Source: Nesterenkonia sp. PF2B19
Lineage (GTDB): Bacteria; Actinomycetota; Actinomycetes; Actinomycetales; Micrococcaceae
Assembly (NCBI RefSeq): GCF_001758425.2
Contig: NZ_MDSS02000006.1
Coordinates: 1-64,000, forward strand
Reading direction: 5' to 3'
Length of the DNA stretch: 64,000 nucleotides
Part shown: positions 5,969 to 33,493 of the stretch, piece by piece
How positions within the stretch are numbered: position 1 is the stretch's first letter
How the letters are laid out: every line of letters starts with the position of its first letter
The notes under the pieces: generated by a model
Databases searched by the model: none
Told to the model about the DNA's origin: nothing
Seen by the model: only the letters and a program-made list of their open reading frames with translations
Program-made: the position numbers and the translations under genes

Positions 5969-6216
5969 ATTGGCGGTCCGTCCTGTGGCGAAGGTCATGA
6001 TTCATCTCCTCCCGGGCGGAAGGTCTACGATGATCCGCGCAACATTGCGTCCAGGAATGTGCCGACGCCCGCGTCACCGGCGACGGTGGCTTACCCTGGT
6101 ACGTAGATCGCACTCGCACAGGCGTCACACACATCCGCTCCGCCAACTGCGATCAGATGCGCACCCAAGGAAGGGCGGGCGGAACGCCATGCGACGATGC
6201 AGGGAGGTTTACACAC

Positions 6217-6597
6217 GTGACGCAATCCAAAGGCACCCTGTACAGGGGCCGAGAAGGCATGTGGTCCTGGGTCGGCCACAGGATCACCGGCGTCGGCATC
6301 TTCTTCTTCCTCCTGGTCCACGTGCTCGACACTTCGCTCGTGCGCGTGTCTCCGGAGGCCTACGATGCCGTCATCGGCGCCTATAAGAACCCCATCATGA
6401 TCATGGGCGAGATCGGCCTGGTCGGCGCGATCGTCTTCCACGCCTTCAACGGTCTGCGGATCATCCTGGTGGACTTCTGGAAGAAGGGCACGCGCTACCA
6501 CAAGCAGATGCTCTGGGGCGTGCTCGCCCTCTGGATCGTGACGATGGTCGCCTTCAGCGCCCGTCACCTGATGCTCTTCCTGGAAGGGTGGAACTGA
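6217..6597 (+). CDS. sdhC: Succinate dehydrogenase cytochrome b556 subunit
   Basis: Membrane anchor of respiratory complex II. I place the start at the GTG at 6217 (reading VTQSKGTLYRGREGMWSW) because GGGAGG lies 9 bases upstream. An upstream ATG at 6157 would add 20 residues with no similarity to the family. The 126-residue product has three hydrophobic spans and the conserved HRITGVGIFFFLLVH segment, whose His is a likely haem ligand or quinone-site residue, and HAFNGLR. It is the first gene of sdhCDAB, with sdhD 3 bases downstream. Confidence 0.93.
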   Translation: MTQSKGTLYRGREGMWSWVGHRITGVGIFFFLLVHVLDTSLVRVSPEAYDAVIGAYKNPIMIMGEIGLVGAIVFHAFNGLRIILVDFWKKGTRYHKQMLWGVLALWIVTMVAFSARHLMLFLEGWN

Positions 6598-6600
6598 TCG

Positions 6601-7098
6601 ATGACCGCCACCAACTCTGAAGCAGTCCTCCCGGCACAGGGCATCGAGGCCCCCCGCTCGGGACGAGTGGACCCCAAGTACCTGCGCAGCAAGACGACCT
6701 CCGGCAGCTTCGAGATGGCCGCCTGGGTCTTCATGCGCGTCTCCGGCATCGCCCTGGTGGTGCTCATCTTCGTGCACCTGTGGGTGAACCTCATGGTGGG
6801 TGACGGCATCCACCAGGTCGACTTCGGCTTCGTCGCCGGCAAGTGGGCCAACCCGGTCTGGCAGTTCTGGGACCTGACCATGCTCTGGCTGGCCATGCTG
6901 CACGGCACCAACGGCATGCGCACCATCATCAACGACTACGCCGAGAAGGACTCGACCCGCCTGTGGCTGAAGTCGATCCTCTACATCGGCAGCACGGTGA
7001 TCATCATCCTGGGCACCATGGTGATCTTCACCTTCGAGCCGTGCCTGCTGGACAGCACCACCGGCGAGCCGCTGCCGCGGGCGGTCTGCCCGAACTGA
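6601..7098 (+). CDS. sdhD: Succinate dehydrogenase hydrophobic membrane anchor subunit
   Basis: Second membrane anchor of complex II, 165 residues. A hydrophilic N-terminus of about 38 residues is followed by three membrane spans. [10 protein letters not shown] and MLHGTNGMR carry the conserved His residues expected near haem and quinone. The spacing of 3 bases to sdhC indicates translational coupling. A 124-base gap separates it from sdhA. Confidence 0.92.
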
Positions 7099-7222
7099 TC
7101 GACGAGCGCCCCTCCCCGCCGGGCTGACCCCGGGCTCCGCCCAGGGCACGACGACGGCGGGGAGCGCGGGCCCCGTCCGAGACGCCTCCACCACTTCCGA
7201 CCGAAGAGAGACACCCAAGCTG

Positions 7223-9010
7223 ATGCAGGTTCACAAGTATGACGTCGTCATCGTCGGCGCCGGCGGCGCGGGGATGCGCGCCGCCATCGAATCCGGCCAG
7301 CGCGCCCACACCGCCGTGCTGACGAAGCTCTATCCGACCCGCTCCCACACCGGCGCCGCCCAGGGCGGCATGTGCGCCGCCCTCGCGAACGTCGAGGAGG
7401 ACAACTGGGAGTGGCACACCTTCGACACCGTCAAGGGCGGTGACTACCTGGTCGACCAGGACGCGGCCGAGGTCATGGCCAAGGAGGCCATCGACGCCGT
7501 CCTCGACCTGGAGAAGATGGGGCTGCCCTTCAACCGCACCCCCGAGGGCAAGATCGACCAGCGTCGCTTCGGCGGCCACACGCGCGACCACGGCAAGGCC
7601 GCCGTGCGCCGCGCCTGCTATGCGGCCGACCGCACCGGCCACATGATCCTGCAGACGCTCTACCAGAACTGCGTCAAGCACAACGTGGAGTTCCACAACG
7701 AGTACTACGTGCTGGACCTGCTCACCGTGGAGGAGGACGCCACCCGCGAGGACGGCACCCCCTACAAGCAGAAGCGCGTCGCCGGCGTCGTCTCCTACGA
7801 CCTCGCCAACGGTGAGATCCACGTCTTCCAGGCCAAGTCCGTGGTGTTCGCCACCGGCGGGTTGGGCAAGATCTTCAAGACCACCTCCAACGCGCACACG
7901 CTGACCGGGGACGGCATGGCCATCGCCTACCGCGCCGGCATCCCGCTGGAGGACATGGAGTTCGTGCAGTTCCACCCGACCGGACTGGCCGGGCTGGGCA
8001 TTCTGCTCTCCGAGGCGGCCCGCGGTGAGGGCGGCATCCTGCGCAACTCCGAGGGTGAACGCTTCATGGAGCGCTACGCCCCCACCATCAAGGACCTGGC
8101 CCCGCGTGACATCGTCGCCCGGTCCATGGCCAACGAGGTGCGGGAGGGGCGCGGCTGCGGCCCGAACAAGGACTACGTGCTGCTGGACCTGACCCACCTG
8201 GAGCCGGCGCACATCGACGCCAAGCTGCCGGACATCACCGAGTTCGCCCGCACCTACCTCGGTGTGGAGCCGTACACGGAGCCGGTTCCGGTGTTCCCCA
8301 CCTGCCACTACGCCATGGGCGGCGTGCCCACCACGGTGACCTCCGAGGTGCTGCAGGACAACGACACCACCGTCCCCGGCCTCTACGCCGCCGGCGAGGT
8401 CGCCTGCGTCTCCGTCCACGGGTCCAACCGTCTGGGCACCAACTCCCTGCTGGACATCAACGTGTTCGGCAAGCGCGCCGGCATCGCCGCCGCCGAGTAC
8501 GCCTCCACCGCCGAGTTCGTGGAGCTGCCGGAGAACCCGACCGCCCGCACCGAGGAGATGCTCGCCACGGTCCGCAACGGCAACGGCGGAGAGCGGGTGG
8601 CCGCCATCCGTGCCGAGCTCCAGGAGACCATGGACGCCAACATGCAGGTGTTCCGTTCCGAGGAGACCATCAAGGAGGCCCTCGGCGTCATCGAGAACCT
8701 GCGGGAGCGTTACCAGCAGGTGCAGATCCAGGACAAGGGCCGCCGGTTCAACCTCGACCTGCTCGAGGCCGTGGAGCTCGGCTTCCTGCTGGACATGGCC
8801 GAGGTCATGACCGTGGCCGCGCTGCACCGGCAGGAGTCCCGCGGAGGTCACTACCGCGAGGACTTCCCCGACCGCGACGACGAGAACTTCATGCTGCACT
8901 CGATGCTCTACCAGGACCCCGAGGCGGAGACCGAGGGCACGAAGGGCATCCGCTTCGAGACCAAGCCGGTCGTCTTCACCCGCTACGAGCCGATGGAGCG
9001 TAAGTACTGA
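7223..9010 (+). CDS. sdhA: Succinate dehydrogenase flavoprotein subunit
   Basis: 595 residues, the expected size. It oxidises succinate to fumarate in the TCA cycle, passing electrons from FAD to SdhB. The N-terminal FAD-binding motif is [16 protein letters not shown]. His-42 in [10 protein letters not shown] is the covalent FAD attachment site, and [13 protein letters not shown] and the active-site PRDIVARSM region (arginine) are present. The C-terminus is the usual capping and helical domain ([16 protein letters not shown]). The stop TGA overlaps the sdhB start ATG by one base. Confidence 0.97.
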
Positions 9011-9801
9011 TGAGCACCCCCACCCAAGACGTCGCAGAGCCTGCCTCCAAGGTCGATCTCGCCCAGAGCTCGGGCGGAGGCGGGGAGATCCCCAGCTTCG
9101 ACATCACCCTGAAGGTGCGCCGCTACGATCCCGAGTTCTCGGATGAGGCCCGTTGGGACGAGTGGACCCTGACCATGTACGGCACGGACCGTGTGCTGGA
9201 CGCCCTGCACAAGGTCAAGTGGGAGATCGACGGCTCGCTGACGTTCCGTCGTTCCTGCGCCCACGGCATCTGCGGCTCCGACGCCATGCGCATCAACGGC
9301 CGCAACCGCCTGGCCTGCAAGACCCTGCTGAAGGACCTCGACACCTCCAAGCCGATCACGGTGGAGCCGATCAAGGGCCTCCCGGTGGAGAAGGACCTGA
9401 TCGTGGACATGGAGCCGTTCTTCCAGTCCTACCGGGAGATCATGCCGTTCCTGGTCAACAACTCCCCCGCCCCGACGGCGGAACGGCTGCAGTCCCCGGA
9501 GGACCGCGAGCGGTTCGACGACACCACCAAGTGCATCCTGTGCGCGGCCTGCACGTCCTCCTGCCCGGTGTTCTGGACCGACGGCCAGTACTTCGGCCCC
9601 GCGGCGATCGTGAACGCCCACCGCTTCATCTTCGACTCCCGCGACGACGCCGGCGACATGCGCCTGGAGGTCCTCAACGACAAGGAGGGCGTGTGGCGCT
9701 GCCGCACCACCTTCAACTGCTCGGACGCCTGCCCGCGCGGGATCGAGGTCACCAAGGCCATCCAGGAGGTCAAGACGGCCATCCTGACCCGGGCCATGTG
9801 A
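9010..9801 (+). CDS. sdhB: Succinate dehydrogenase iron-sulfur subunit
   Basis: 263 residues carrying the three clusters of complex II. The [2Fe-2S] motif is RSCAHGICGSDAM near residue 83, where the third ligand position is Asp, as in several bacterial SdhB proteins including that of E. coli, with LACKTLL completing it. CILCAACTSSCPVFW and FNCSDACPRGIEV give the [4Fe-4S] and [3Fe-4S] clusters. The N-terminus has an unusual 30-residue low-complexity lead (SSGGGGEIP). It ends the operon, followed by a strong hairpin. Confidence 0.97.
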   Translation: MSTPTQDVAEPASKVDLAQSSGGGGEIPSFDITLKVRRYDPEFSDEARWDEWTLTMYGTDRVLDALHKVKWEIDGSLTFRRSCAHGICGSDAMRINGRNRLACKTLLKDLDTSKPITVEPIKGLPVEKDLIVDMEPFFQSYREIMPFLVNNSPAPTAERLQSPEDRERFDDTTKCILCAACTSSCPVFWTDGQYFGPAAIVNAHRFIFDSRDDAGDMRLEVLNDKEGVWRCRTTFNCSDACPRGIEVTKAIQEVKTAILTRAM

Positions 9802-18943: not shown

Positions 18944-20457
18944 GTGACCTCAGCCTCCCCCACACCCGACGACGCCGGCTCAGCCGCCCCGGACGGCGCG
19001 CCGCCTGATCCCCCGGCCCGTCGGGTGATGGTGGCGCTGCTGACTCCGCTGTTCGCCGCGCTGATGAGCATCAGCATCGTCAACGTGGCGCTGCCGGCGA
19101 TCGAATCAGGGCTGGGCGCCGGGTCCTCGGATCTGCAGTGGGTCCTGTCCGGCTACGCCCTGGCCTTCGGGGTGGTGCTGGTGCCTGCGGGCCGGGCCGG
19201 CGACCTGTGGGGCCGCCGCCGCTTCTTCCTGCTGGGCGTGGCGGTGTTCGGGCTGGCCTCCCTGATGTCCGCCCTGGCGCCCACCCCGATGGTGCTCAAC
19301 ATCGCCCGCGTGCTCATGGGAGTCGGGGCGGGGCTGCTGACCCCACAGATCATCGGCATGATCCAGCAGCTGTTCCGTGGGTCGGCCCGCGGCCGGGCCT
19401 ACGGGCTGATGAGCACCGTCATCGGCGTGGCCGTGGCGGCCGGACCGGCGATCGGCGGGCTGATCATCGACGTCGTCGGTGACGACCTGGGCTGGCGGAC
19501 GACGTTCCTGATCAATGTGCCGCTGACCCTGCTGGCCTTCGTGCTCGCCTTCCTGTGGCTCCCGCGCACCGGTGGAGGGGCCGTCACCGGCACCACCAGC
19601 AGCACCGGCACCCGCACCGGCAGCGGCGGCCGCCGAGGCCTGGCCGCGCTGGATCCGCTGGGCGTGGCGCTGCTCTCCGCGGCGTGGTGCTGGTCATGCT
19701 GCCGTTCATCCAGTTCCGCTCCGGAACCGGAGCGTTCCTCGGCGCCGCTGGTCTGGCGCTGATGACCGTCTGGGCGTTCTGGGAGCGCCGCCTGGGACGG
19801 CTCGACGCCGAGGCGCCCATGGTGGACCTGGCCCTGTTCACCCGTCCCAGCTACACCCTCAACACCCTGGTGCTGTCCCTGTACTTCCTCGGAATGCCGG
19901 CTGTGTGGGCGGTCGTCGCGGTCTATGTGCAGCAGGGGCTGGGCCATGGGGCGCTGGTGGCCGGCGTCGTGACCCTGCCCTCGGCGGTGATGGTCATGCT
20001 GCTCTCCACCGCGGTGGGGCGCCGCGTGGAGACCTCGGGCCCTCGGATGCTGGTGGTCGGCACGGTGATCGCCGTGCTCTCCATGCTCGCCCTGGCCGGG
20101 GCCACCGCATTGATGGGCGCCGGCTCCGGGTCCCTGTGGCTGGTGGGAGCCGCCCTGGCGCTCAACGGGCTCTCCCAGGCGCTGATCATCCCCAGCGCGC
20201 AGACCCTGTCCATGCAGGATGTGCCGGCGCGCATGGCAGGCGCGGCCGGCGGCGTCGCGCAGACCTCCCAGAGGCTGTTCACGGCGGTCGGCATCGCTCT
20301 GGTCACCGGGGTCTACTTCAGCATCGCGGCAGCCGTGGACCACCATGCCGCCGTGCTGGTGGCCTCCCTGGCGATCGCCGCATGCATGCTCAGCGCCGTG
20401 CTCGCCGCAGTGCTGGCGGCCCGCCGGGCGCGACGGGCCCCGGCGGCCGCCTCGTGA
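18944..20457 (+). pseudogene. MFS drug/metabolite exporter (DHA2-like), one frameshift
   Basis: Two overlapping frames form a 14-span-type exporter of about 505 residues. The first (GTG start at 18944) carries SIVNVALPAIESGL, LQWVLSGYALAFG and the motif-A loop GRAGDLWGRRRFFLLG, typical of the DHA2 subfamily. The second continues from GVVLVMLPFIQFRS through eight more spans to the stop at 20457. Inserting one base at 19680/19681 rejoins them as LLSAGVVLVML. The substrate is unknown. It is divergent from the small gene at 18848 and converges on the NIPSNAP-like gene 10 bases away. Confidence 0.85.
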
Positions 20458-20466
20458 GGGGCCCGG

Positions 20467-20808
20467 TCAGCGCAGGCGCGTGACCTGGGTGAGGTCCTTG
20501 TCGAGCACGTACTTCGGCCGGCCGGAGAAGATCCGAGCCCGTTCCTCGGACTCCTCCCACTCCTTCTCGGCGGCCGCGAACTCCTCGGCAGTGCCGAAGC
20601 GGCTGACATACCAGGTCAGCTCGGTGCTGTCCGCGGCGAGCCACACCGACTCGACGGTGAAGCCGCGCTCCTCCCGGGCGGGGAAGACCTCGTCGCGCAG
20701 GAACGCGACGAACTCCTGCGCCAGCTCCGGGTCCAGCCTGTAGCGGCGCATCCAGGTGGTGCGCCGGGTCTCCTCGGCGCCGACGGTGGTCTCAGGAAGC
20801 TCGGTCAT
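20467..20808 (-). CDS. NIPSNAP-like dimeric alpha/beta-barrel protein
   Basis: 113 residues starting at the ATG at 20808 with GGAGAG upstream; the open frame extends further but without similarity. MRRYRLDPELAQEFVAFLRDEVFPAREERGFTVE (shown in parts) and ELTWYVSRFG, then AAAEKEWEES, match the pattern of NIPSNAP/EthD-like ferredoxin-fold proteins, which are small stress or catabolic accessory proteins without a fixed reaction. It is the last gene of the minus-strand polyamine series, 95 bases after the amidase. Confidence 0.65.
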   Translation of the reverse strand: MTELPETTVGAEETRRTTWMRRYRLDPELAQEFVAFLRDEVFPAREERGFTVESVWLAADSTELTWYVSRFGTAEEFAAAEKEWEESEERARIFSGRPKYVLDKDLTQVTRLR

Positions 20809-20903
20809 GTCTCTCCTCGCAAGGACGGGGCGTCTGGCGGGCCGGAGCAGGTCAGCCCCGACTCGCGGCGGGCCGGCTCCGCTGACCCGCCGGCGCCTCC
20901 ATC

Positions 20904-22648
20904 CTACGAAGCATCCAGCCGCGGCGTCCGCGGCGGCTCGGTGCGGCGGCGCCCGGTGGCCTCGAGGGCCGCGGCGATCTGCAGCAGCCTGACGTCGTCG
21001 TGGGCGCGCCCGGCGAAGGTCAGCCCCACCGGCATCCCGGTGTCGGCCATGGTGCCCATCGGCACGGTGACGGTCGGCACCCCCAGGTGCCGCCAGACCA
21101 GGTTCCCGTTGGCCACCCAGACGCCGTTGCGCCACGCGAGCTCCGCCGAGTCTGGGTTGACGTCCGCATCCGCAGGTCCGACGTCGGCCACCGCGGGGAA
21201 AGCGATGACGTCCAGGCCCAGCCGGTCCATCCAGGCCTCCAGATCGACCTCCCGGGTGCGCACCAGACCACGCAGGCCCTCCTGAAGGTGCGGGATCTGA
21301 TGCATCGACAGCTCGGGGGTGTCCCGGATGAACTGCGGGTAGGCGGCGATGTCGTCGTCGAAGCCGTGGTACCGGTCCTCCAGGGCGCCCTCCGGGTGCG
21401 GGAAGATCTGCGTCCCGTCCACCGCCGCGAGGCTGGACAGCCCGGGGTCCCCGTTGGCGTTCAGGAAGTCCTCCCACCCCCAGGCGGAGAGGTCGAGGAT
21501 CTCTCGGTCCAGATACTCGGAGCTGACCAGCCCTCGGGTGCGGATCGTCGGGGCCCCTGGGCGGTCTCCCTCGTAGTTGGTGACCACCGGCAGGTCCGTG
21601 ATGCGTACGTCGGCCCCGTGGCGCTCCATGTCCGCGCGCGCCTGCTCCCAGAGGTCGAGCACACTGGGCCGCGGGGTAATCGGCCGCCCGGTGGAGCCGC
21701 CGATGCCCGTGACCCCTTCGGGGGACGGCTCAGCGGTCCCGGCCGAGGCGTCCAGGCCCAAGTACAGGGCGGGCGCCCCGATCCGCAGCCCCGCGAGCAG
21801 CCGCGCGGCCTCCGCGGGATCGGCCGGACGCAGGTCCGTGAAGCTCTCCGGACGCACAGCAGAGGTCTTCGGGATCTCCACCCACGGCTGCACCCGCCAG
21901 AAGTCGCCCCGGGTCTCGGCGTCGTCGACCATGATGACGTCGAGCACCTCCAGCATGTCCTCCATGCTGCGGGTGTGCGGCACCACCACGTCCATGGTGG
22001 GCACCAGCGGCCAGTTCCCCCGGATCGAGATCATCCCCCAGGACGGGGTGTAGGCGCACAGGGCGTTGTTCGACGCCGGCGCGCGCCCGGAGGACCAGGT
22101 CTCCTCCGCCAGGCCGAAGGCCGCGAAGCTGGCCGCCGTCGCCGTGCCGGATCCGTTGGAGGAGCCGGAGGCGAAGGCGGAGGTGAGGTGCTCGGCGCTG
22201 TACGGGCTCTCGGCCCGGCCGCGCAGACCTCGCTGCATGCCGCCGTTGGCCATCGGAGGCATGGTGGTCAGGCCCAGCAGGACCGCCCCTGAGGCTCGCA
22301 GCCGCTCCACGGTGAAGGAGTCCCGCTGGGCGACGAGCTCCGCGAAGGCCGGCGAGCCGGCCGAGACGGTCAGCCCGGCGGCCTGGTAGCTCTCCTTGGC
22401 GGTGTAGGGGATGCCGTCGAGCGGACCCAGGAGCTCGCCGCGGGCACGGCGGGCGTCCGAGGCGCGGGCCTCGGCGAGTGCCTGCTCGTTGCGCACCACC
22501 ACGGCGTTGAGCCGCGGCCCTGTTGGTCGTAGGCCTCGATGCGCGCCAGGTGGGCGCCCACCAGCTCCTCACTGGTGGTCTCGCCGCGCTCCAGAGCCGC
22601 GCGCATCTGCGGGATCGCGGCCTCCACGACGTCGAATGCTGCCGTCAT
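20904..22648 (-). pseudogene. Amidase-signature hydrolase, one frameshift
   Basis: A 581-residue amidase of the Ser-Ser-Lys class, read from two frames. The start ATG at 22648 gives MTAAFDVVEAAIPQMRAAL and LARIEAYDQQG. The second frame continues RLNAVVVRNEQALAEARA. One C added near 22517 joins them. Visible catalytic parts are the Lys in PYTAKES, and FASGSSNGSGTATAAS holding the two serines (the family usually has GGSSGGSA, so this is a divergent site). The C-terminal 300 residues include an insertion not typical of GatA. It sits 16 bases after agmatine deiminase. In this context it could hydrolyse N-carbamoylputrescine, but that is inference; a peptide or nitrile-derived amide is equally possible. 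Confidence 0.75.
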
Positions 22649-22664
22649 CGCTGATCTGTTCCTT

Positions 22665-23792
22665 TCACGCGTGAGGGGTCGCCTGCGCCCGGCCGGGTGC
22701 TTCCGGGCGGAGGCGCGGCCGCGGCTGCTGCTGGGTGATGCAGTGGATGCCGCCCCCGAAGCAGAGGATGTCCCGGGCGTCCACCAGCTGGATCCGGTGG
22801 TCCGGGTAGGCCCGGGCCAGGATCTCGGCGGCCTGCGCGTCGTGGGGGTCGTCGTAGCCGCACAGCACCACCAGGCCGTCGGCCACGTAGTGGTTGATGT
22901 AGGTCCAGTCCACGAACTCTTCGTCGGCGTCCACGATGGTGCGCGGGGCCGGGACGTCGATGATCTCGAACGGGTTCCCCTCCGCGTCGCGCGCCGCCTC
23001 CAGGACCTCGCGCAGCCGGCGGGTGACCGCGTGGTCCGGGTGCCGGGGGTCGTCCTGCCGGTGCAGCAGCACGCTGCCGGACGGGGTGAAGCAGGCGAAC
23101 ATGTCCACATGACCGCGGGTGCCGAACTCCTCGTAGTCCCGGGTGAGACCACGGGGGAACCAGACGGCGTGGCGGGTGCCCAGCTTCGCGTGCAGCTCCG
23201 CCTCGATCTGCTCCCTGCTCAGCCCGGGGTTCCGCCCCGGATCCTGCTGGACGGTCTCGGTGAGCAGCACGGTGCCGCGGCCGTCCACGTGGAAGGCCCC
23301 GCCTTCGTTGACCAGCGGGCTGCCGATCCGTTCGGCGCCGGCGGGACCGGCCATCTCCACTCCGACCTTGGCGTCCCGCTCATGGGGGGCCCAGGGCTGG
23401 TCGCCCCAGCCGTTGAAGATCCAGTCCACTCCGGCGACGGCGCCCGAGGCGGTGTGGACGAAGGTCAGCCCGATGTCACGCATCCAGGCGTCGTCGAGGG
23501 CGATGGTGACGATCTCGGCGACCTCGCCGAGCGCTTCCCGGGCGGCCTGCTCGTCCGCCGGGTCGGCCACCACGGTGACCGGTTCGACGGCGGCGATGGT
23601 ACGCGCCACCTGGGACCAGGCCCGCCGGGCGCGTGCCAGCGACTGCGAGCCGTGCGGACCGAAGGTCTCGTTGGCCGGGGGGAAGGCCATCCAGGTGCGC
23701 TCATGCGGCGCCCACTCGGGCGGCATCACGGTCGTCTCCGTCGTGGCGCCGACCGGCTGCGCCGTCGTCGGCTGTGAGATGGGGGTGTCCAT
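22665..23792 (-). CDS. aguA: Agmatine deiminase
   Basis: Converts agmatine to N-carbamoylputrescine and ammonia. 375 residues, family length. Markers are MPPEWAPHERTWMAFP at the N-terminus, DDAWMRDIGLTF, VDWIFNGWG, RGHVDMFACF with the catalytic His-x-Asp, and CFGGGIHCITQQQ near the end with the nucleophilic Cys. The ATG at 23792 has GGAGAG upstream. It lies between an APC permease (29 bases upstream) and an amidase (16 bases downstream) on the same strand, so a catabolic role is likely. No nitrilase-type AguB is present in the window. Confidence 0.93.
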   Translation of the reverse strand: MDTPISQPTTAQPVGATTETTVMPPEWAPHERTWMAFPPANETFGPHGSQSLARARRAWSQVARTIAAVEPVTVVADPADEQAAREALGEVAEIVTIALDDAWMRDIGLTFVHTASGAVAGVDWIFNGWGDQPWAPHERDAKVGVEMAGPAGAERIGSPLVNEGGAFHVDGRGTVLLTETVQQDPGRNPGLSREQIEAELHAKLGTRHAVWFPRGLTRDYEEFGTRGHVDMFACFTPSGSVLLHRQDDPRHPDHAVTRRLREVLEAARDAEGNPFEIIDVPAPRTIVDADEEFVDWTYINHYVADGLVVLCGYDDPHDAQAAEILARAYPDHRIQLVDARDILCFGGGIHCITQQQPRPRLRPEAPGRAQATPHA

Positions 23793-23821
23793 GTCTCTCC
23801 TCAGGGTCCTCCGCGGGGCGG

Positions 23822-25363
23822 TCAGGCGGTCGGGTGCTCGGTGGTCTCGAAACGGCGGCGGAAGAACTCCGGGTTGCGGCGGTGCTGGTAGAGCATCGCG
23901 GCCACGCCGAGCACGAAGATCAGCACGCCCAGGATGAACACCAGGCCGACGCCGCCGATCTCGGAGCCGGAGCCGTAGGCCGGGTCCATCGAGTCCCAGG
24001 CGGTCTGGAAGAAGAAGATCAGCAGCAGGATGCCGCCCAGCAGCGGGGCCAGCAGCTTGTTGATGAAGGATCCCACGGAGGCGGTGGCCTCGGCACGGAA
24101 GTACCACACGCAGGCCAGCGCCGTGACGCCGTAGTAGAAGCAGACCATCATGCCCAGAGTGGTGATGGTGTCCCACAGGACGTTCTCCGAGATCACGCGC
24201 ATCACCGCGTAGAAGACCGCGGCGATGACCACCGAGACGATCGTCGCGTAGGCCGGCGTCTGGTGCTTGGGGCTGACCTTCGCATACTTGGGGCTCAGCG
24301 CTCCGTAGTGGCCCATGGCGAGCATGGTCCGCGCCGGGGAGATCATCGTGGACTGCAGCGAGGAGGCGGAGGAGGACAGCACTGCCAGGGAGATGAGGAT
24401 CGCGAAGGGCCCCATCACCGGGCCGGCCAGCGCGGCGAAGACGTTCTCCTGGATGTCCGGGTTGCCCAGGCCGAAGTCCCCGGTGGAGACGCCCGCGTAG
24501 GACAGGGTCGCCAGCGTCACCAGGGTGTAGAGCCCGACGACGACCAGGATGGTCAGCACGGCCGCCTTGCCGGGCGTGGTGGTGGTGCCCTTGGACTCCT
24601 CGTTCATCGTCAGTACGACGTCCCAGCCCCAGTAGATGAACACCGACAGGGCGATGCCTGCGGCGAAGGCGGAGAAGGTCTCCACACCGAACGGGTTGAA
24701 CCAGTCCCAGCTGAAGTGGGTCGCGTCGAAGGCGGTGCCGCTGCCCACGTGGCGGAAGGCCACCACGGAGAACCAGACCAGCACGAGCATCTGGAAGGAG
24801 ACCAGCAGGTACTGGAACGCCTTGGTGGCCTCCAGTCCGCGGTAGGAGATGTAGGCGGCCACGGCCATGAAGGCCAGGCAGGTGAGGATGTTGACCGGCA
24901 CGTTGCGTGTCAGGTCCGCGATCCAGTCCAGGCCGGTGAGCTGACTGATCGCCAAGTAGAAGAAGTCCACGGCGATGCCGGCAAGGTTGGACAGCACCAG
25001 GATCGTGGAGGCCAGCAGGCACCAGCTGCCCATCCACCCGATCCATGGGCCGAAGGCCCGGGAGGCCCAGGTGAAGGTGGTGCCGGAGTCGGGCATGGCC
25101 CGGTTGAGCTGGCGGTAGCCCAGGGCCACCAGCAGCATCGGGATGAACCCGACGATCAGCACCGCCGGCAGGTGCTCACCAACGGCCGAGGCGGTGGGTC
25201 CGACCGCGCCGGAGAGCGTGTAGGCCGGTGCGATCGTGGAGACGCCGATGACGACGGCGCCGAGCGTGCCGATCGCTCCGGCACTCAGGCCTTTCCTGTG
25301 GTCCGTCCCTGCGGGTGCGGATCCTGGGGCGCCGGTGGCGGCGCCGCTGCCGATCTGGGTCAT
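23822..25363 (-). CDS. APC-superfamily amino acid/polyamine permease
   Basis: 513 residues with twelve predicted spans. The N-terminal GAVVIGVSTIAPAYTLSG contains the unwound span-1 region of APC carriers. NRAMPDSGTTFTWASRAFGPWIGWMGSW is the conserved span-2 to span-3 signature. The C-terminus is a short basic tail. Being flanked by agmatine deiminase and a stress-protein/amine-oxidase pair, with gaps of 29 and 14 bases, agmatine or putrescine is the likely substrate (inference from context). Confidence 0.88.
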   Translation of the reverse strand: MTQIGSGAATGAPGSAPAGTDHRKGLSAGAIGTLGAVVIGVSTIAPAYTLSGAVGPTASAVGEHLPAVLIVGFIPMLLVALGYRQLNRAMPDSGTTFTWASRAFGPWIGWMGSWCLLASTILVLSNLAGIAVDFFYLAISQLTGLDWIADLTRNVPVNILTCLAFMAVAAYISYRGLEATKAFQYLLVSFQMLVLVWFSVVAFRHVGSGTAFDATHFSWDWFNPFGVETFSAFAAGIALSVFIYWGWDVVLTMNEESKGTTTTPGKAAVLTILVVVGLYTLVTLATLSYAGVSTGDFGLGNPDIQENVFAALAGPVMGPFAILISLAVLSSSASSLQSTMISPARTMLAMGHYGALSPKYAKVSPKHQTPAYATIVSVVIAAVFYAVMRVISENVLWDTITTLGMMVCFYYGVTALACVWYFRAEATASVGSFINKLLAPLLGGILLLIFFFQTAWDSMDPAYGSGSEIGGVGLVFILGVLIFVLGVAAMLYQHRRNPEFFRRRFETTEHPTA

Positions 25364-25377
25364 GGTGGTGTCCTCCC

Positions 25378-26247
25378 TCAGCGGACGGCGTCCGCGGGGT
25401 TCGGGTGGTCGTTCCGGTGGTCAGGGGTGTCATGGCGCGGCATGACGATCAGCGGGATCGGCAGCTGCGTGAGGATGCGGGCGGCGGTGTCACCCAGGAA
25501 GAGTCGACGTCGGCCGGCCAGGCGGGAGGAGCCCATCATGAGCAGGCCGCCTTCGGGCCAGTCGTGGGCGGCGACGGCGCGGGCGGGGTCCCCGCCCTGG
25601 GGGAAGGTCACCTGGGTCACCGGCACCTGGAGCTGGGCCGCCCAGGCGGCGGCGTCGTCGGCGACCTGGTGCACGCCACCGCCCGGGGAGACGGCGGCCA
25701 GCACGTGGCCGACCGGTGTCTCGTCGCGGTGGCCGGCAGGCGCCAACGCCAGCGGCACCGGGGAGCTGTGCAGCAGAGCGTCCACCGCCGGGTGGGTGGT
25801 GAGCCGACGGGCCCCCACTCCGGAACCGGTGACCAGCAGGTCGGCTCCGTGCTCCTCGGCGGCGGCGATCAGACCTTCGGCCACCGAGGGGGCGGGGCTG
25901 ATCGCGCTGCTGTGCGCGACGTCGTCGGGGATCATCTGCTGCGCCTCGGCGAGCCAGCCGCGTGCCTGGTCGGCGATGATCCCGCCGACGTCGCCCACCG
26001 GCGGGTACGCCGGGGTGAAGGCGGAGTGCTGCCGCAGGATCAGCTGCAGGTGCAGGTGTGCGTCGGCGGCCCGGGCGAGGGCGACGCCGAGTCGCACCGC
26101 ATCGCGGCTGCGCTCGTCACCGCCGTATCCGACCAGGATGCGTCGCAGGGCGGGGGCCGTCACCGCGGGCGGGGTCTCCGTCTCCGTGACGGTGACGGCC
26201 TCAGCGCCGGCGTCAGTGCCGGTGCCGGTCTCTGTGTGGGGGCTCAT
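25378..26247 (-). CDS. Universal stress protein, tandem UspA domains
   Basis: 289 residues with two UspA-like domains. The first (about residues 30-165) has RRILVGYGGDERSRDAV and the nucleotide-loop-like LLVTGSGVGARRLTTHPAVDALLHSSPVPLAL. The second (170-280) ends LLMMGSSRLAGRRRLFLGDTAARILTQLPIPLIVMP. Both G-x-x-x-x-G-S-x-type loops are recognisable though degenerate. The start is the ATG at 26247 with AGAGGAG 8 bases upstream. A frame that runs on from the amine oxidase into this gene is an artefact of that gene's frameshift. USPs bind ATP or act in stress survival; here the gene is inside the polyamine operon. Confidence 0.88.
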   Translation of the reverse strand: MSPHTETGTGTDAGAEAVTVTETETPPAVTAPALRRILVGYGGDERSRDAVRLGVALARAADAHLHLQLILRQHSAFTPAYPPVGDVGGIIADQARGWLAEAQQMIPDDVAHSSAISPAPSVAEGLIAAAEEHGADLLVTGSGVGARRLTTHPAVDALLHSSPVPLALAPAGHRDETPVGHVLAAVSPGGGVHQVADDAAAWAAQLQVPVTQVTFPQGGDPARAVAAHDWPEGGLLMMGSSRLAGRRRLFLGDTAARILTQLPIPLIVMPRHDTPDHRNDHPNPADAVR

Positions 26248-26276
26248 CGGGGGGTCTCCTCTCGCAGGCTCGTCGC

Positions 26277-27684
26277 TCACACCGTGGCGGCTGACGTCGG
26301 CAGCTCGGCCAGGACGTCCTCGGCGGCTCGGCGGCCCTGGCGCAGGTCCGCCGTCGACGTGCTGATAGCCCTCGGCGGCAAGGTCCGAGCAGGCCCAGTG
26401 GATCGGACCGACGGCCTCCCGCTGATGGGCGCCGTAGCGGCTCAGTCCGCCGAGGTCGAAGCTGGCGGCGTAGGCTCCGCGGGTCCACTCCTCCGAGCCG
26501 AAGTCGGACTCGTAGTAGACCTCGGGGCTCAGCGCCTGATCACCCAGGTAGTGCGCGAGCGACTCGAGGATCCGCCGACGACGCTCCTCCTCAGGGAGGG
26601 CGAACATCTCGTCGGCCTTCTCGTCGGAGACGAAGGCGACGAGGGTTCCGCGGGAGTCCCCGTGGTTGGTGTTGTCGTAGACCTCCTGGCAGATCTCCGC
26701 GGCCCCGAACCCGGTGCCGGAGAGGCCTGCTTCGCGCCAGAAGGGGCGGTCGTAGACGGCGTGGACCTTGATGACCAGGCCCATGGACTGGTGCTGGTGC
26801 ATCTGGTGCTGCAGTCGTGGCAGGGCCGGTTCGAAGCTGATGCGGGAGTACAGGTTCGGCGGGACGGCCACGATCACCTGCTGCGCGCGGACGGTGACCC
26901 GGTCCGACCACACGGTGACCCCGTGCGGCTCCTCCCAGGCGATGGTGCGCACCGGGGTCTCCAGGTGCACGGTGCCCGGCTCGAGCTGAGCGGCCATCGT
27001 CTCGGAGACGCTCTGCATGCCGCCGACCACGCGACGGTCCAGGATGAAGTCCTCATCGACCAGGTGGCTGAAGGAGCCTGCGGAGGCGGCCATCAGCACC
27101 GCCTGCAGCGCGGAGAAGGCGTGGTCCGGCTTGGTCAGCATGCCGCCGGCCAGGAAGATCGCGAGGTTCTCGCGGGCCGGGGCGTCGTCGGTCTGCTGCC
27201 GCAGCCACTCGGCGAACGTGACCGAGTCCAGCTCCCGGGCCTGCGGGTGCGCCCACGGCTCCTGGGCCCCGATCTCGGCGGCCAGCCGATCGAGGATCTC
27301 GATGACGCGCTCCATCTCGGCCTCGGTGTGCTCCCCGACGGGGAACATCTCACCGGTGAACTCGTGGCGGGTGCCGTCGGTGGCCAGGTAGACGTTGGCC
27401 CCGTCGCGGTGGCGCTGGAAGGTCTCCAGCCCAAGCTCGTCGAGGAGACCCAGCAGCTCGGTCTGGTCCGGCGAGACCCACTGGCCCCCGACCTCCAGGA
27501 AGGCGCCGTCGATCTCCTGCGACCAGGTGCGGCCTCCCACGCGGTCGCGAGCCTCCAGGACGGCGACGCTGCGGCCCTGCTGCTGCAGGGCGCGGGCGGC
27601 GCGCAGCCCGGCCGGTCCGGCCCCCACCACGACGACGTCACGGTCGAGTGCCTCGATGCTTCCCACGGAGCGGATCCCTGTCAC
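26277..27684 (-). pseudogene. FAD-dependent amine oxidase (putrescine-oxidase type), C-terminal frameshift
   Basis: About 470 residues. The FAD-binding motif is DVVVVGAGPAGLRAARALQQ, then LEARDRVGGRTWSQ and GGQWVSPDQTEL, as in monoamine/putrescine oxidases. The C-terminus has GPIHWACSDLAAEGYQHVDGG, the FAD-contacting end. Past this the frame goes out of phase; shifting near 26344-26352 gives LRQGRRAAEDVLAELPTSAATV and a stop at 26277-26279. I prefer the GTG at 27684, with AAGGAG 7 bases upstream, over the ATG at 27720 that lies inside the palindromic site. Putrescine oxidase makes 4-aminobutanal, hydrogen peroxide and ammonia. The adjacent agmatine deiminase and aldehyde dehydrogenase support this substrate. 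Confidence 0.82.
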
Positions 27685-27701
27685 TGTGCTCTCCTTCACA
27701 A

Positions 27702-27723
27702 TTAAATGAACTATATTCATTAA
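27702..27723. promoter_or_regulatory. Palindromic site AATGA-N7-TCATT before the amine oxidase operon
   Basis: The core AATGAACTATATTCATT (27705-27721) is a 5-bp dyad in a strikingly AT-rich patch. It lies 21 bases upstream of the amine oxidase start and 130 bases before the divergent TetR gene. A close copy exists at 30097-30118 (15 of 22 positions identical). This is the expected size and placement of a TetR-family operator. Confidence 0.65.
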
Positions 27724-27850
27724 CGGGCATGGACACCCACCTTGTCAAGCCCTGCGATGACTTCCCCCGCCCTGCGGGCCGTCGTCGTGGTTCTCACCCA
27801 GGCGCCGCCTACACTGAGGGCGCCAGCTGACCTCGACCCGAAGGACCACC

Positions 27851-28509
27851 GTGAGCCCGGAGCAGACCCGACCCCGACGACGCGGCCGACCGTCCTCCCC
27901 CGTACTCTCCCGCGAGGGCATCACCACCGCGGCGATCCGGATCGTGAGCACCCGTGGCTACCGGGACCTGACGATGGCGTCCCTCGCCCGCGAGCTCGGC
28001 GTCTCCACCTCGGCGCTGTACAACCACGTCTCCTCCAAGCGAGATGTGATGCTGCTCCTGCAGGATCGGCTCAACGAACAGATCGACACCACCGGCTTCC
28101 AGTCCCTGCCCTGGGACCAGGCGCTGCGCCGGTGGGCGATCTCCTACCGGGACTGCTACATCCGGCACACCGAGCTGATCCCGATCATGGCTGTCCTCCC
28201 GGTAGCCGACGCGCCCCAGACGCTGGTGATGTACGAACGTGTCACCGCCGCACTGGAGGACGCCGGCATCCCCGGGCCGGACGCCGTGGACGTGATCGTC
28301 GGCGTCGAGGCCCTCGTCTTCGGCGCCGCCTACGACGCCTCGGCACCGGCCGACATCTTCGACCCCGGGCGCCGGGCAGACCTGGCCCCGCGCTTCGGCC
28401 GGGCCGCTGCGGCGCGGGACGAGACGCCCGCGCCGCGGCGGACCGCGCCTTCCTGTTCACCTTGGACTCTCTGATCGACGGACTGCGCCGCCGCGTGGCC
28501 ACCGAGTGA
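27851..28509 (+). pseudogene. TetR-family regulator, one late frameshift
   Basis: About 219 residues. The N-terminal DNA-binding domain has LSREGITTAAIRIVSTRGYRD, then LTMASLARELGVSTSALYNHVSSKRDVMLLL, the classical helix-turn-helix of TetR repressors. The C-terminal domain matches the TetR ligand-binding type with YRDCYIRHTELIPIM. One base missing near 28422 moves the last about 30 residues out of frame. Restored, the end reads DARAAADRAFLFTLDSLIDG and RRRVATE, with a stop at 28509. The GTG start at 27851 has GAAGGA upstream. It is divergent from the amine oxidase operon, so local control, probably by putrescine or a derivative, is likely. Confidence 0.82.
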
Positions 28510-28552
28510 GCGTCGCGCGACCTCTGGGGAGGCGCGGGCATGAGCCCCTCGG

Positions 28553-28586
28553 GCGGCCGCTCGGGCGGATGCTCAGGAGCGGCCGC
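28553..28586. terminator. GC-rich hairpin between TetR gene and aldehyde dehydrogenase
   Basis: GCGGCCGCTC (28553-28562) pairs with GAGCGGCCGC (28577-28586) across 14 bases, in the gap between two convergent genes. It abuts the aldehyde dehydrogenase stop codon. No clear T-run follows, so a weak bidirectional terminator is the likely role. Confidence 0.4.
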
Positions 28587-30014
28587 TCAGACCTCGATGG
28601 CGTGCATGACGTGCTTGACCCGGGTGTATTCCTCCACCGCATACCCGGAGAGATCCTTCCCATGCCCCGAAGCCTTGAACCCCCCATGAGGCATCTCCGC
28701 GACCAACAACAGATGCGTATTGACCCACACACACCCGAAGTCCAGATCCCGAGTGAACCGCATCGCCCGCGCCCCATCAGCCGTCCACACACTCGAAGCC
28801 AACGCATACTCCACCCCATTGGCCAGCTCCAACGCCTCCTGCTCCGAGGCAAACGACTGCACCGTGAGCACCGGCCCGAAGACCTCCTCCTGCACAATCG
28901 CATCCGACTGCTCAACCCCCGTGATGATCGTGGGCTCAAAGAAGAACCCCGGACTGCCCTCCACCGGGCCACCCCCGGTGAGGATCCGCGCATGCCCCGG
29001 CAACCCCTCGATCTTGGCCTGCACCGCCGCGAAATGCCGCGCATTGTTCAACGGCCCATAATCATTGAGCCCATCATCGACATTGCCGGTCCGGGTCGCT
29101 TCCGCCGCAGCCACCAGATGCTCCACCAACTCATCATGAGCTGACTCCTCGACCAACACCCGAGTCACCGCCGTACAGTCCTGCCCCGCATTGAAGGTCC
29201 CGAACTCCACCACAGCCTTCGCCACCGCCGCAAGATCCACATCACCGAAGACCACCGCCGGAGCCTTCCCACCGAGCTCCAGATGCGTGCGCTTCAACCC
29301 CGCCGAGGCGGCCACCGCCTCCCCGGCCCGCACCGACCCGGTCAACGAGACCATCGCCGCAGCCCGATGCTCCGTGAGCAGCCGCCCGGTCGAACCATCA
29401 CCGAGGACCACATTGACCACCCCGGTCGGGAAGATCTCCCCAGCCAACCGGGCCAACACCAGGGTGGACTCCGGAGTCGTCTCCGAGGGCTTGAGCACCA
29501 CCGTGTTCCCCGCCGCCAGAGCCGGGCCGATCTTCCAGATCGCCATCATCAACGGGAAGTTCCACGGCGCGATCTGCGCCACCACCCCCACCGGCTCCCG
29601 CCGCACATAGGAGGTATGACCCTCCATATACTCCGCGGCACCCCGGCCCTCCAGCATCCGGGCCGCCCCCGCGAAGAACCGCAGCTGATCCGCCCCCGCG
29701 GCGACCTCCTCCTCAGCGATGATCCCCCGCGGCTGACCAGTGTTGCGATGCTGAGCCTGAACCAGCTCCTCACTGTGGGCCTCGATGGCATCGGCCAACG
29801 CCAGCAGATGCTTCTGCCGCACCGACGGGGTCACCTGCTTCCACCCGGTGAAAGCCCGCTCAGCCGCCTCGAACGCGGCATCCACATCAGCGGCCCCCGA
29901 GATCGGCGAGACCGCCACCATCTCCCCGGTGGCCGGATCCACCACCTCGAAGACCTCCTGTCCCTGGGCCGGCACGAACCGACCATCGATGAAGTTCTCC
30001 AACCGCTCACCCAT
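28587..30014 (-). CDS. Aldehyde dehydrogenase, gamma-aminobutyraldehyde type
   Basis: 475 residues of the NAD(P)-dependent ALDH superfamily. Motifs in order are APWNFPLMMAIWKIGPAL, the catalytic Glu in HLELGGKAP, and the catalytic Cys in FNAGQDCTA near residue 280, then EEVFGPVLTV and the C-terminal MPHGGFKASGHGKDLS. The gene pattern and its place in the polyamine island point to oxidation of 4-aminobutanal to GABA, completing putrescine degradation; betaine-aldehyde use is the main alternative. Codon use is unlike all neighbours, with many GAT, AAT, CAT, TTG, TGT and GGG codons, which suggests recent transfer. The promoter region holds the second palindromic site 86 bases upstream. Confidence 0.88.
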   Translation of the reverse strand: MGERLENFIDGRFVPAQGQEVFEVVDPATGEMVAVSPISGAADVDAAFEAAERAFTGWKQVTPSVRQKHLLALADAIEAHSEELVQAQHRNTGQPRGIIAEEEVAAGADQLRFFAGAARMLEGRGAAEYMEGHTSYVRREPVGVVAQIAPWNFPLMMAIWKIGPALAAGNTVVLKPSETTPESTLVLARLAGEIFPTGVVNVVLGDGSTGRLLTEHRAAAMVSLTGSVRAGEAVAASAGLKRTHLELGGKAPAVVFGDVDLAAVAKAVVEFGTFNAGQDCTAVTRVLVEESAHDELVEHLVAAAEATRTGNVDDGLNDYGPLNNARHFAAVQAKIEGLPGHARILTGGGPVEGSPGFFFEPTIITGVEQSDAIVQEEVFGPVLTVQSFASEQEALELANGVEYALASSVWTADGARAMRFTRDLDFGCVWVNTHLLLVAEMPHGGFKASGHGKDLSGYAVEEYTRVKHVMHAIEV

Positions 30015-30096
30015 GATGACGCTCCTGTTCCTGTGGTGATGTCTTGTGATGCCGAGGGACGAGACCGGCCGGAAGGCCAGAGACTCCGCACCTCGC

Positions 30097-30118
30097 TTTA
30101 ATGATCGTGATTCATTTT
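30097..30118. promoter_or_regulatory. Second AATGA-N7-TCATT palindrome, aldehyde dehydrogenase/LLM promoter region
   Basis: The core AATGATCGTGATTCATT (30100-30116) repeats the dyad found before the amine oxidase, with identical arms and a seven-base centre. It lies 86 bases before the aldehyde dehydrogenase start and about 102 bases before the divergent LLM gene. The surrounding 20 bases are AT-rich, unlike the region as a whole. Confidence 0.62.
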
Positions 30119-30219
30119 AGGGTCGTATGACGTGACGCGCAACACGTCGTCCCGCTCCGCGGTCGGGGCCCGCCGCTGTCTCCGGTCGGCCCACCCCTTT
30201 CGGCAGGAGGAATACCCCG

Positions 30220-31266
30220 GTGCCGTCGCCGGTTCCTGCGGAGGTGAAGAGCATCGGATTCCTCTCCTTCGGACACTGGACGCCCTCGCCCCATTCGAGG
30301 ACGCAGTCAGCGCAGGACGCGCTGCTGCAGTCCATCGACCTGGCCGTGGCCGCCGAGGAGCTCGGCGCCGACGGGGCGTACTACCGGGTCCACCACTTCG
30401 CGCGCCAGCTGGCCTCCCCGTTCCCGCTGTTGGCCGCGATCGGCGCACGCACCAGCCGGATCGAGATCGGCACCGGGGTGATCGACATGCGCTACGAGAA
30501 CCCGCTGCGCTTCGCCGAGGACGCCGGGGCGGCGGATCTGATCTCCGGGGGCCGGCTGCAGCTCGGCATCTCACGGGGATCCCCCGAGCAGGTCATCGAC
30601 GGCTGGCGACACTTCGGGCATCGTCCCGCCGAGGGCGAGTCCGACGCCGACATGGCCCGCCGCCACACCGAGGCAGCCCTGCAGGTGCTCACCGGTGAAG
30701 GCTTCGCCGAGCCGAATCCACGGCCGATGTTCCCGAACCCTCCCGGGCTGCTGCGGCCCGAACCGCACTCCCCCGGACTGCGGGAACGCCTCTGGTGGGG
30801 CGCGGGCTCCGACGCCACGGCTCGTTGGGCCGCCCGGCAGGGGATGAATCTGATGAGCTCGACCCTGAAGGACGACGAGACCGGGGAGCCCTTCCACGTC
30901 CAGCAGCGGCGACAGATCGAGGCCTTCCGCCACGAGTGGGAGGGCCACGACCACGGCTTCACTCCGCGCGTCTCGGTGAGTCGGTCGATCGTGGCGCTCA
31001 CCAGCGACCAGGACCGGGCCTACTTCCTCGGGCAGCGCGAGGCCCAGGACCAGGTCGGCATGCTCGACGAGAGGACGCGGGCGATCTTCGGGCGCAGCTA
31101 CATCGGCGAGCCCGAGGAGCTGGTGCAGGAGCTGGCCCGCGACGAGGCCGTCGCCGCCGCGGACACGCTGCTGATCACCGTGCCGAACCAGCTCGGGGTG
31201 GACTACAACGCGCACCTGATGGAGTCGATCCTCACCGCGGTGGCACCCCCGCTAGGCTGGCGCTGA
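30220..31266 (+). CDS. LLM-class flavin-dependent oxidoreductase
   Basis: 348 residues, luciferase-like monooxygenase (TIM barrel) fold. Visible features are SIGFLSFGHWTP at the start, ELGADGAYYRVHHFA, RTSRIEIGTGVIDMRYENPLR, and DLISGGRLQLGISRGSPEQV, the typical LLM loop. The GTG start at 30220 has GGAGGA 8 bases upstream. The substrate cannot be predicted; flavin or F420 dependence is unclear. It is divergent from the aldehyde dehydrogenase and shares that promoter region and palindrome. Confidence 0.85.
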   Translation: MPSPVPAEVKSIGFLSFGHWTPSPHSRTQSAQDALLQSIDLAVAAEELGADGAYYRVHHFARQLASPFPLLAAIGARTSRIEIGTGVIDMRYENPLRFAEDAGAADLISGGRLQLGISRGSPEQVIDGWRHFGHRPAEGESDADMARRHTEAALQVLTGEGFAEPNPRPMFPNPPGLLRPEPHSPGLRERLWWGAGSDATARWAARQGMNLMSSTLKDDETGEPFHVQQRRQIEAFRHEWEGHDHGFTPRVSVSRSIVALTSDQDRAYFLGQREAQDQVGMLDERTRAIFGRSYIGEPEELVQELARDEAVAAADTLLITVPNQLGVDYNAHLMESILTAVAPPLGWR

Positions 31267-32870: not shown

Positions 32871-33493
32871 TCAGGCGACCTTCCCCTGCTCGAAGTACCT
32901 GCTGACGTCCTTGGTGAACGCAGTGAGGAACCAGTAGACGTTCACCGCGATGAACGCGATGGACAGCACCAGCGAGAGGATGCCGATCGCCCCCGTGTCC
33001 AGCATCATCCCGATGCCGGTGAGGCCCCACAGCGTGAACAGGGTGCCGAGTGCGGCGAACACGGTGCCGAGGATCCTGCCCCAGTTCTTCACCTTGGTGA
33101 TGCCGAGGTAGGCCACGATGTAGAGCACCACCGGGATGATGAGCATGACGGCGGCGAAGATCATCCCCCGACCATGGCGAAGGAGAGTGTCTCCTCGTCC
33201 ACGGCCATGCCCTGGGCCGCCAACTGCTCACGCACCGCGTCCTCATCCGTCGCCTGGAACATCCCGACGAGTCCCGAGAGGACGTAGATCCCCAGAGAGA
33301 CGAGGGTGAGCTTCTTCAGCAGGCCGAACTTGGTCGGCTCGGCCATCGGCCCGCCGACCGCGTTCGGGTCATAGGGGTCGGTGCCGAACTTGGGCCCCTC
33401 GGGGCTCGGCTGCTGGTAGGGGTTCTGACCCGGCTGCTGGTTCGGGTCCTGCGGGTTCGGATGCTGGGGGTCCCCATAGGGCGAGCTGGTCAC
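32871..33493 (-). pseudogene. Hypothetical membrane protein, one frameshift in a G run
   Basis: Two frames meet at a run of five G (plus-strand C at 33164-33168). Adding one base restores MVGGMIFAAVMLIIP and a 208-residue protein. The N-terminal 50 residues are rich in Pro, Gln and Asn (NPQDPNQQPGQNPYQQPSP), a disordered cytosolic tail. Then come one hydrophobic span, a soluble segment rich in acidic residues, and three more spans ending at AFTKDVSRYFEQGKVA. The design resembles many small actinobacterial DUF membrane proteins. I do not recognise a function. It is followed by a terminator and stands alone on the strand. Confidence 0.7.

Follow-up and report, generated by a model that had tools for sequence, protein, structure and literature searches.

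Do the genes for agmatine and putrescine breakdown on one contig of Nesterenkonia sp. PF2B19 (Micrococcaceae) share a single switch? The window analyzed here, that is, the first 64,000 nt of contig NZ_MDSS02000006.1 (G+C 69%; host genome 3.70 Mb), carries leftward from position 27684 the genes for a putrescine oxidase, a universal stress protein (Usp), an APC permease, an agmatine deiminase and an amidase. The tetR gene runs rightward from 27851, and an aminobutyraldehyde dehydrogenase gene runs leftward from 30014. These enzyme, permease and TetR calls, made in a first-pass annotation of the sequence, hold against profile and Protein Data Bank (PDB) matches. So does the 22-base element that it placed in the oxidase/tetR gap and in the gap upstream of the dehydrogenase gene: positions 27702-27723 and 30097-30118 are equal at 15 of 22 positions. 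Exact copies of AATGA-N7-TCATT lie at 27705-27721 (AATGAACTATATTCATT) and 30100-30116 (AATGATCGTGATTCATT), with no third exact copy in the window or anywhere else in the genome. When one mismatch was allowed, the window still held two copies (mean of 0.20 over 100 dinucleotide shuffles, one of which reached two), and the genome held 10 places, two of them exact, against 2 for a control pattern read backwards. The palindrome is very probably the operator of the TetR protein encoded at 27851, which would block two units and be released by a diamine.

To see whether the site follows the TetR protein, 30 Nesterenkonia genomes were surveyed for TetR orthologues (E<1e-60) and for sites with at most one mismatch from AATGAA-N5-WTCATT. 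Thirteen genomes had the orthologue; 11 of them showed two sites 2.2-2.5 kb apart, and the remaining two had one site each, located 107 nt upstream of where the TetR match begins. The exact form was present in 12 of the 13 genomes with the orthologue, whereas it was found in only 1 of the 17 genomes without it (p 2e-6), and that lone site (genome G013) is within a predicted gene. Scanning named genomes with the TetR protein gave 28 loci, 25 at 62-83% identity and three weaker; the closest match was that of Nesterenkonia halophila (83%). All 25 loci in the upper range, from Nesterenkonia, Rothia, Kocuria, Arthrobacter, Zhihengliuella, Nocardiopsis, Glycomyces and a metagenome-assembled genome of Propionibacteriaceae, had at least one exact site. 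As for the weaker loci, no site with up to one mismatch was found in L030 (35%) or L032 (39%), and L031 (42%) had one one-mismatch site.

The sites are concentrated at the promoters of the pathway genes. We scored the 28 loci chosen by TetR together with 80 loci chosen by agmatine deiminase, the latter picked from 131 places (five further places of CN-hydrolase or other type, fetched for the motif, were excluded from the scoring). Promoters were taken as the 350 nt before the tblastn match of the first gene and not before the annotated start. In the TetR-chosen loci, 42 of 43 exact sites fell within the 3.2% of bases that precede oxidase, dehydrogenase or AguA units, and in the deiminase-chosen loci 25 of 28 exact sites fell within the corresponding 4.5%. 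A site with up to one mismatch was present at 23 of 24 oxidase promoters and 19 of 20 dehydrogenase promoters in the scorable TetR-chosen loci, and each miss was L030.

Co-occurrence was then counted in 197 genomes of the family, with thresholds of E<=1e-30 for TetR, E<=1e-90 for the oxidase and E<=1e-30 for agmatine deiminase (TIGR03380), and with the exact palindrome; one TetR match per genome was counted (two for G124), and two oxidase fragment matches were left out. TetR was found in 135 genomes, the oxidase in 131, the palindrome in 133 and the deiminase in 115. TetR and the palindrome occurred together in 119 genomes, TetR alone in 16, the palindrome alone in 14 and neither in 48 (odds ratio 25.5); the p values (1e-19 for this pair) overstate the independent evidence because the genomes of a family are related. 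For TetR and the oxidase the counts were 122 both, 13 TetR only, 9 oxidase only and 53 neither. Of the 122 genomes having both, 115 had TetR no more than 1.5 kb from the oxidase gene, and in 109 the two were divergent. The possibility that the palindrome is a mere companion of the oxidase was rejected, since three oxidase genes from outside the family, with no TetR match in their 1.5 kb flanks, had no site with up to two mismatches in about 4.2 kb each. Both the enrichment at orthologous promoters and the co-occurrence with TetR and the oxidase and dehydrogenase orthologues, which the first-pass annotation had proposed as checks, were thus found, and its suggestion that one TetR repressor may control both operons is supported by these comparisons of named loci, promoters and family genomes.

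Several findings weigh against this assignment. An exact site is missing from 16 of the 135 TetR genomes and present in 14 of the 62 genomes that lack a TetR match. The threshold of E<=1e-30 admits matches of 37-45% identity that may be paralogues, and paralogous TetR genes adjoin similar palindromes, so other TetR proteins may share the operator word. The loci also come from related species, with Nocardiopsis supplying 11 of the 28 named ones; three of those from Nesterenkonia probably stem from the same genomes as G007, G021 and G024 of the genus survey, and four named loci (L022, L028, L029 and L030) recur in the deiminase-chosen set. At the agmatine step, 25 of 35 scored AguA-first promoters and 17 of 37 CN-hydrolase-first promoters have no site, and no agmatine deiminase or AguB-like hydrolase of the 197 genomes reaches its NCBIfam equivalog cut-off, so the names AguA and AguB rest on relation and context.

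Part of this could be explained if a DNA-binding protein other than the neighboring TetR bound the palindrome and controlled both promoters. Five of the 14 genomes with a palindrome and no TetR match (G006, G033, G156, G170 and G204) are among the nine TetR-less genomes having the oxidase, and the paralogous TetR proteins beside similar palindromes stand twice with MFS and amidohydrolase genes. However, the adjacency of TetR, oxidase and site is kept across several Actinomycetota families, even in rearranged loci, and in Kocuria massiliensis (L030) a diverged TetR goes with absence of the site. We consider such a second binder improbable, and binding by the neighboring TetR remains our preferred reading.

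The position of the sites relative to the predicted promoters agrees between loci. We aligned 33 oxidase promoters and 27 dehydrogenase promoters on the operator; all rows had been picked because a site had already been seen (for the oxidase promoters, one with up to one core mismatch), so the degree of conservation characterizes the sites but is no test of whether they are present. Site 1 overlaps the probable -10 region of the oxidase promoter, and site 2 that of the dehydrogenase promoter. The oxidase promoters read TTGAC (32 of 33; in 29 of these 26-27 nt upstream of the operator core), followed by NTTAAT running into AATGAA, and TT stands directly 5' of AATGAA in 30 of 33. Since NTTAAT merges into AATGAA, the first arm of operator 1 sits on the probable -10. 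In the window the probable oxidase start, GTG at 27684, lies 20 nt past the operator, behind a GAAGGAG ribosome site. The dehydrogenase promoters are built differently: TTGAC occurs in just 1 of 27, and a GTG-N8-CAC box, which we take to resemble a CRP-family site, is found in all 27 at 29-30 nt in the operator-anchored alignment (shuffle mean 0.45) and in none of the 33 oxidase promoters. TAAAAT-like letters after the box run into the operator, and the box would be centered at about -31 or about -41, depending on the choice of -10.

As the palindrome overlaps the probable -10 at both promoters and stands in or beside the 5' leader, it could instead be a promoter or mRNA element, such as a conserved -10 region with a hairpin, with no dedicated repressor. 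This can hardly be right: both arms are conserved while most spacer positions are variable, the element is present at two promoters with different upstream regions, and it is absent from the three oxidase promoters without a TetR match.

Site 2 also faces an LLM-class flavin monooxygenase gene. Of the 11 Nesterenkonia genomes with a site pair, only 4 (the own genome, G007, G021 and G029) have this gene matched beside site 2, and it was matched at none of the 16 site-2 loci aligned from other genera. Because it is not a stable neighbor, the idea that site 2 serves the LLM gene was rejected; we judge that site 2 belongs to the dehydrogenase promoter and that the LLM gene is to be dropped from the regulon.

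In the simplest reading, a TetR dimer on the -10 region of two transcription units would block their transcription. Unit 1 would be an operon of putrescine oxidase, Usp, APC permease, AguA and AguY, and unit 2 the 4-aminobutanal dehydrogenase gene. AguA would convert agmatine to N-carbamoylputrescine and AguY the latter to putrescine; the oxidase would then yield 4-aminobutanal and the dehydrogenase 4-aminobutyrate (GABA). TetR would be released by a diamine that the permease imports, putrescine being the likeliest. Repression of tetR by its own product is not supported, because the distance from site 1 to tetR varies, from about 130 nt here to about 1 kb in Kocuria rosea, and in Rothia the site is away from tetR.

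Alternatively, TetR might act on the oxidase and dehydrogenase genes and respond to agmatine or N-carbamoylputrescine. Operators precede AguA operons in many genomes, and AguR of Pseudomonas aeruginosa, a TetR-family repressor with a site in the aguBA promoter, is described as responding to agmatine (PMC4287709). We regard an inducer of this kind as rather unlikely, since the TetR genomes have the oxidase in 122 of 135 cases but agmatine deiminase in only 96, with 39 giving no deiminase match at E<=1e-30 (a further 19 genomes had the deiminase only and 43 neither). Putrescine is the better guess because TetR tracks the oxidase more closely than the deiminase.

The agmatine genes themselves are found behind the operator in other gene orders. 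In two Rothia species the site and the same TTGACA-type promoter precede AguA-AguY, within 20 kb loci in which no oxidase was found. In other genera the operator precedes CN-hydrolase-AguA-APC units (e.g., L110, L125, L092 and L095), and in genus g7 operators stand at both the oxidase and the hydrolase promoter, on either side of tetR, and the second of these copies has one mismatch. In g7 loci L129, L132, L135, L136, L141 and L143, two one-mismatch palindromes offset by 4 nt (AATAAACGAACGTCATTCATT) lie before the AguB-like gene, perhaps for two dimers side by side. A site was present in 20 of the 37 scored promoters of CN-hydrolase-first (AguB-type) operons, exact in 8. Since many AguA-first and CN-hydrolase-first promoters have no site, control of the agmatine step is not universal, and several site-less deiminase operons have a TetR gene of their own (31-38% identity). 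These results show that the deiminase step is often under other control.

Two kinds of hydrolase were distinguished beside agmatine deiminase. The typing took in 131 deiminase places, 63 amidase matches (>500 bits, the second halves of two split genes excluded) and 68 CN-hydrolase matches (>150 bits; the next match had 131 bits). The neighbor was the amidase at 47 places, an AguB-like CN hydrolase at 43, both at none and neither at 41 (Fisher 3e-11); for 16 of the 63 amidase matches, and for 25 of the 68 CN-hydrolase matches, no deiminase lay on the same strand within 3 kb. Both kinds occur in genera g8, g10 and g31, and a single genome, G111, has both, at two separate places. In the window, the amidase scored 877 bits with NF005127 (cut-off 575), and its nearest PDB match was Tse8 (732 bits). 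The mutual exclusion of the two hydrolases and these matches agree with the published assignment of AguY as an N-carbamoylputrescine amidohydrolase (Biochem J, 2025; PMC12283126), in which activity is demonstrated for the proteins of Shewanella oneidensis and Microterricola gilva and Tse8 is derived from AguY; equating NF005127 with AguY is our own step from sequence. As that function is described there, it was rejected as a novelty here.

Other observations concern these operons. In a deiminase tree made by a quick method (104 rows), the hydrolase types need two changes, of which the starred branches force only one, and the AguY-linked deiminases fall into a group of 43 rows and a second of 18 rows that is nested among AguB-linked rows; in the nested group most scored AguA promoters have no operator. 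In L105 (G059:C1:2774137-2786153), positions 6001-9694 hold an operator with genes for an APC permease and then an AguY-family amidase behind it, and no agmatine deiminase match was found in the 12 kb.

The coordinates of the predicted features are listed in the table below.

Table. Predicted regulatory elements and genes of the locus (window coordinates)
Feature	Position	Strand	Remark
Operator 1 (predicted)	27702..27723	.	core AATGAA-N5-TTCATT at 27705-27721
Probable -10 of oxidase promoter, GTTAAT	27719..27724	-	overlaps 5' arm of operator 1
Probable -35 of oxidase promoter, TTGACA	27743..27748	-	18 nt from -10
Operator 2 (predicted)	30097..30118	.	core AATGAA-N5-ATCATT on minus strand, 30100-30116
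Possible -10 of dehydrogenase promoter, TAAAAT	30114..30119	-	overlaps operator 2
GTG-N8-CAC box (GTGTTGCGCGTCAC)	30132..30145	-	overlaps possible -35 of dehydrogenase promoter
AguY-type amidase-signature N-carbamoylputrescine amidohydrolase (putative)	20904..22648	-	NCBIfam NF005127/PRK06565; frame break between 22388 and 22520; function from PMC12283126
Agmatine deiminase (AguA), PAD_porph family	22665..23800	-	start approximate; 257 bits against NCBIfam cut-off of 382
APC permease, probable polyamine/agmatine importer	23822..25363	-	substrate putative
Universal stress protein (Usp) family gene	25381..26151	-	adjoins oxidase gene in many relatives
Putrescine oxidase (FAD amine oxidase)	26350..27684	-	probable start GTG at 27684; match to relative stops near 26350
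TetR-family regulator	27851..28509	+	open reading frame 27851-28474; conserved C-terminal end in another frame, to 28509
4-Aminobutanal (gamma-aminobutyraldehyde) dehydrogenase	28587..30014	-	NF010000
LLM-class flavin monooxygenase	30220..31266	+	neighbor only; judged outside the regulon

The best PDB matches of the oxidase were 3rha (694 bits) and 2yg3 (677 bits), and the first match not named putrescine oxidase had 258 bits. The dehydrogenase matched NF010000 with 645 bits (cut-off 615), and its nearest PDB entry was 6c43. Compared with the nearest relative, G029, frame shifts interrupt each of the genes for the oxidase, TetR and the amidase, and the oxidase frame continues into the Usp gene, giving an open reading frame of 25378-27720 as read. 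In all, five genes (an MFS transporter, the amidase, the oxidase, TetR and a 203-aa gene) match G029 in two frames or end early, with breaks at 19684, 22388-22520, about 26350, about 28423 and 33167-33176, which suggests assembly indel errors or fresh decay.

The TetR protein matched the profile of the N-terminal TetR helix-turn-helix domain, PF00440, with 37.9 bits against a cut-off of 24, and PF02909 with 29.5 bits against a cut-off of 21. Its structure model (predicted local distance difference test, pLDDT, 87) gave 2g7g as the best structural match (Z 19.7, root-mean-square deviation 2.5 over 183 residues) and was closest to Rha04620 of Rhodococcus, titled putative regulator; judged by this model, the regulator is of the TetR fold. 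PADLOC returned no match for the protein. Paralogous TetR genes of 28-37% identity lie by similar palindromes at L108 6001, L029 7394 and L022 5112, the first two with MFS and Amidohydro_3 genes alongside, and perhaps represent a sister regulon with overlapping operator words. In the own genome, a one-mismatch copy (AATGAACTACATTCGTT) at C123:76305-76321 (L069 7306) lies about 40 nt before an amidohydrolase-APC permease pair and is a possible third target. We left it uncounted because a similar site in G029, beside the same downstream gene, precedes an MFS gene, and because a paralogous TetR may be responsible.

The pathway enzymes are already known, AguY since 2025, and the locus is very probably a local TetR catabolic regulon whose switch and operator we did not find in the searchable literature: no account of this TetR or operator appeared in the open-licence papers searched, although the search wording may miss papers. 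Like AguR as described in PMC4287709, the predicted repressor is of the TetR family, has a putative site at the promoter of an operon that includes agmatine deiminase and would be released by a substrate. Unlike AguR, its most constant predicted targets are the putrescine oxidase and dehydrogenase genes, with an AguY-family protein as second enzyme. A site directly before AguA is found in the two Rothia loci, and one before the hydrolase in 20 of 37 CN-hydrolase-first operons, but 25 of 35 AguA-first promoters have none, and in the window AguA is a distal gene. As in the AguA-AguY pathway (PMC12283126), the deiminase gene adjoins an amidase-family gene, but AguY here is the tail of a putrescine oxidase operon, and the main text of that paper mentions neither TetR nor putrescine oxidase. 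The same route, from agmatine through putrescine and 4-aminobutanal to GABA with an oxidase close to 2YG3, is proposed for Arthrobacter sp. Rue61a, with no regulator or operator in the part of that account dealing with the route (PMC3534580). PuuR of Escherichia coli and EpuRII of Streptomyces coelicolor are likewise local regulators of polyamine use, but are described as controlling genes of the gamma-glutamylation route, whereas the present locus belongs to the oxidase route (PMC9397018).

A wider proposal, which we hold to be plausible but short of probable, is that diamine catabolism in Actinomycetota has a movable regulon whose conserved core is the regulator together with its operator. 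The enzymes behind the operator would be exchanged (AguB in place of AguY, agmatine deiminase present or absent), and relocated genes would once more lie behind an operator; the dehydrogenase promoter alone would carry the added CRP-like box, so that aldehyde removal would be under two inputs. For actinobacteria in which the enzymes of putrescine and agmatine breakdown are known, the present analysis supplies an operator word, a target set and a direct test of their control. The occurrence of both types of N-carbamoylputrescine hydrolase after the same operator word independently supports the AguY assignment. If the assignment of the operator is true, the TetR protein and its operator would also be a ready diamine sensor part.

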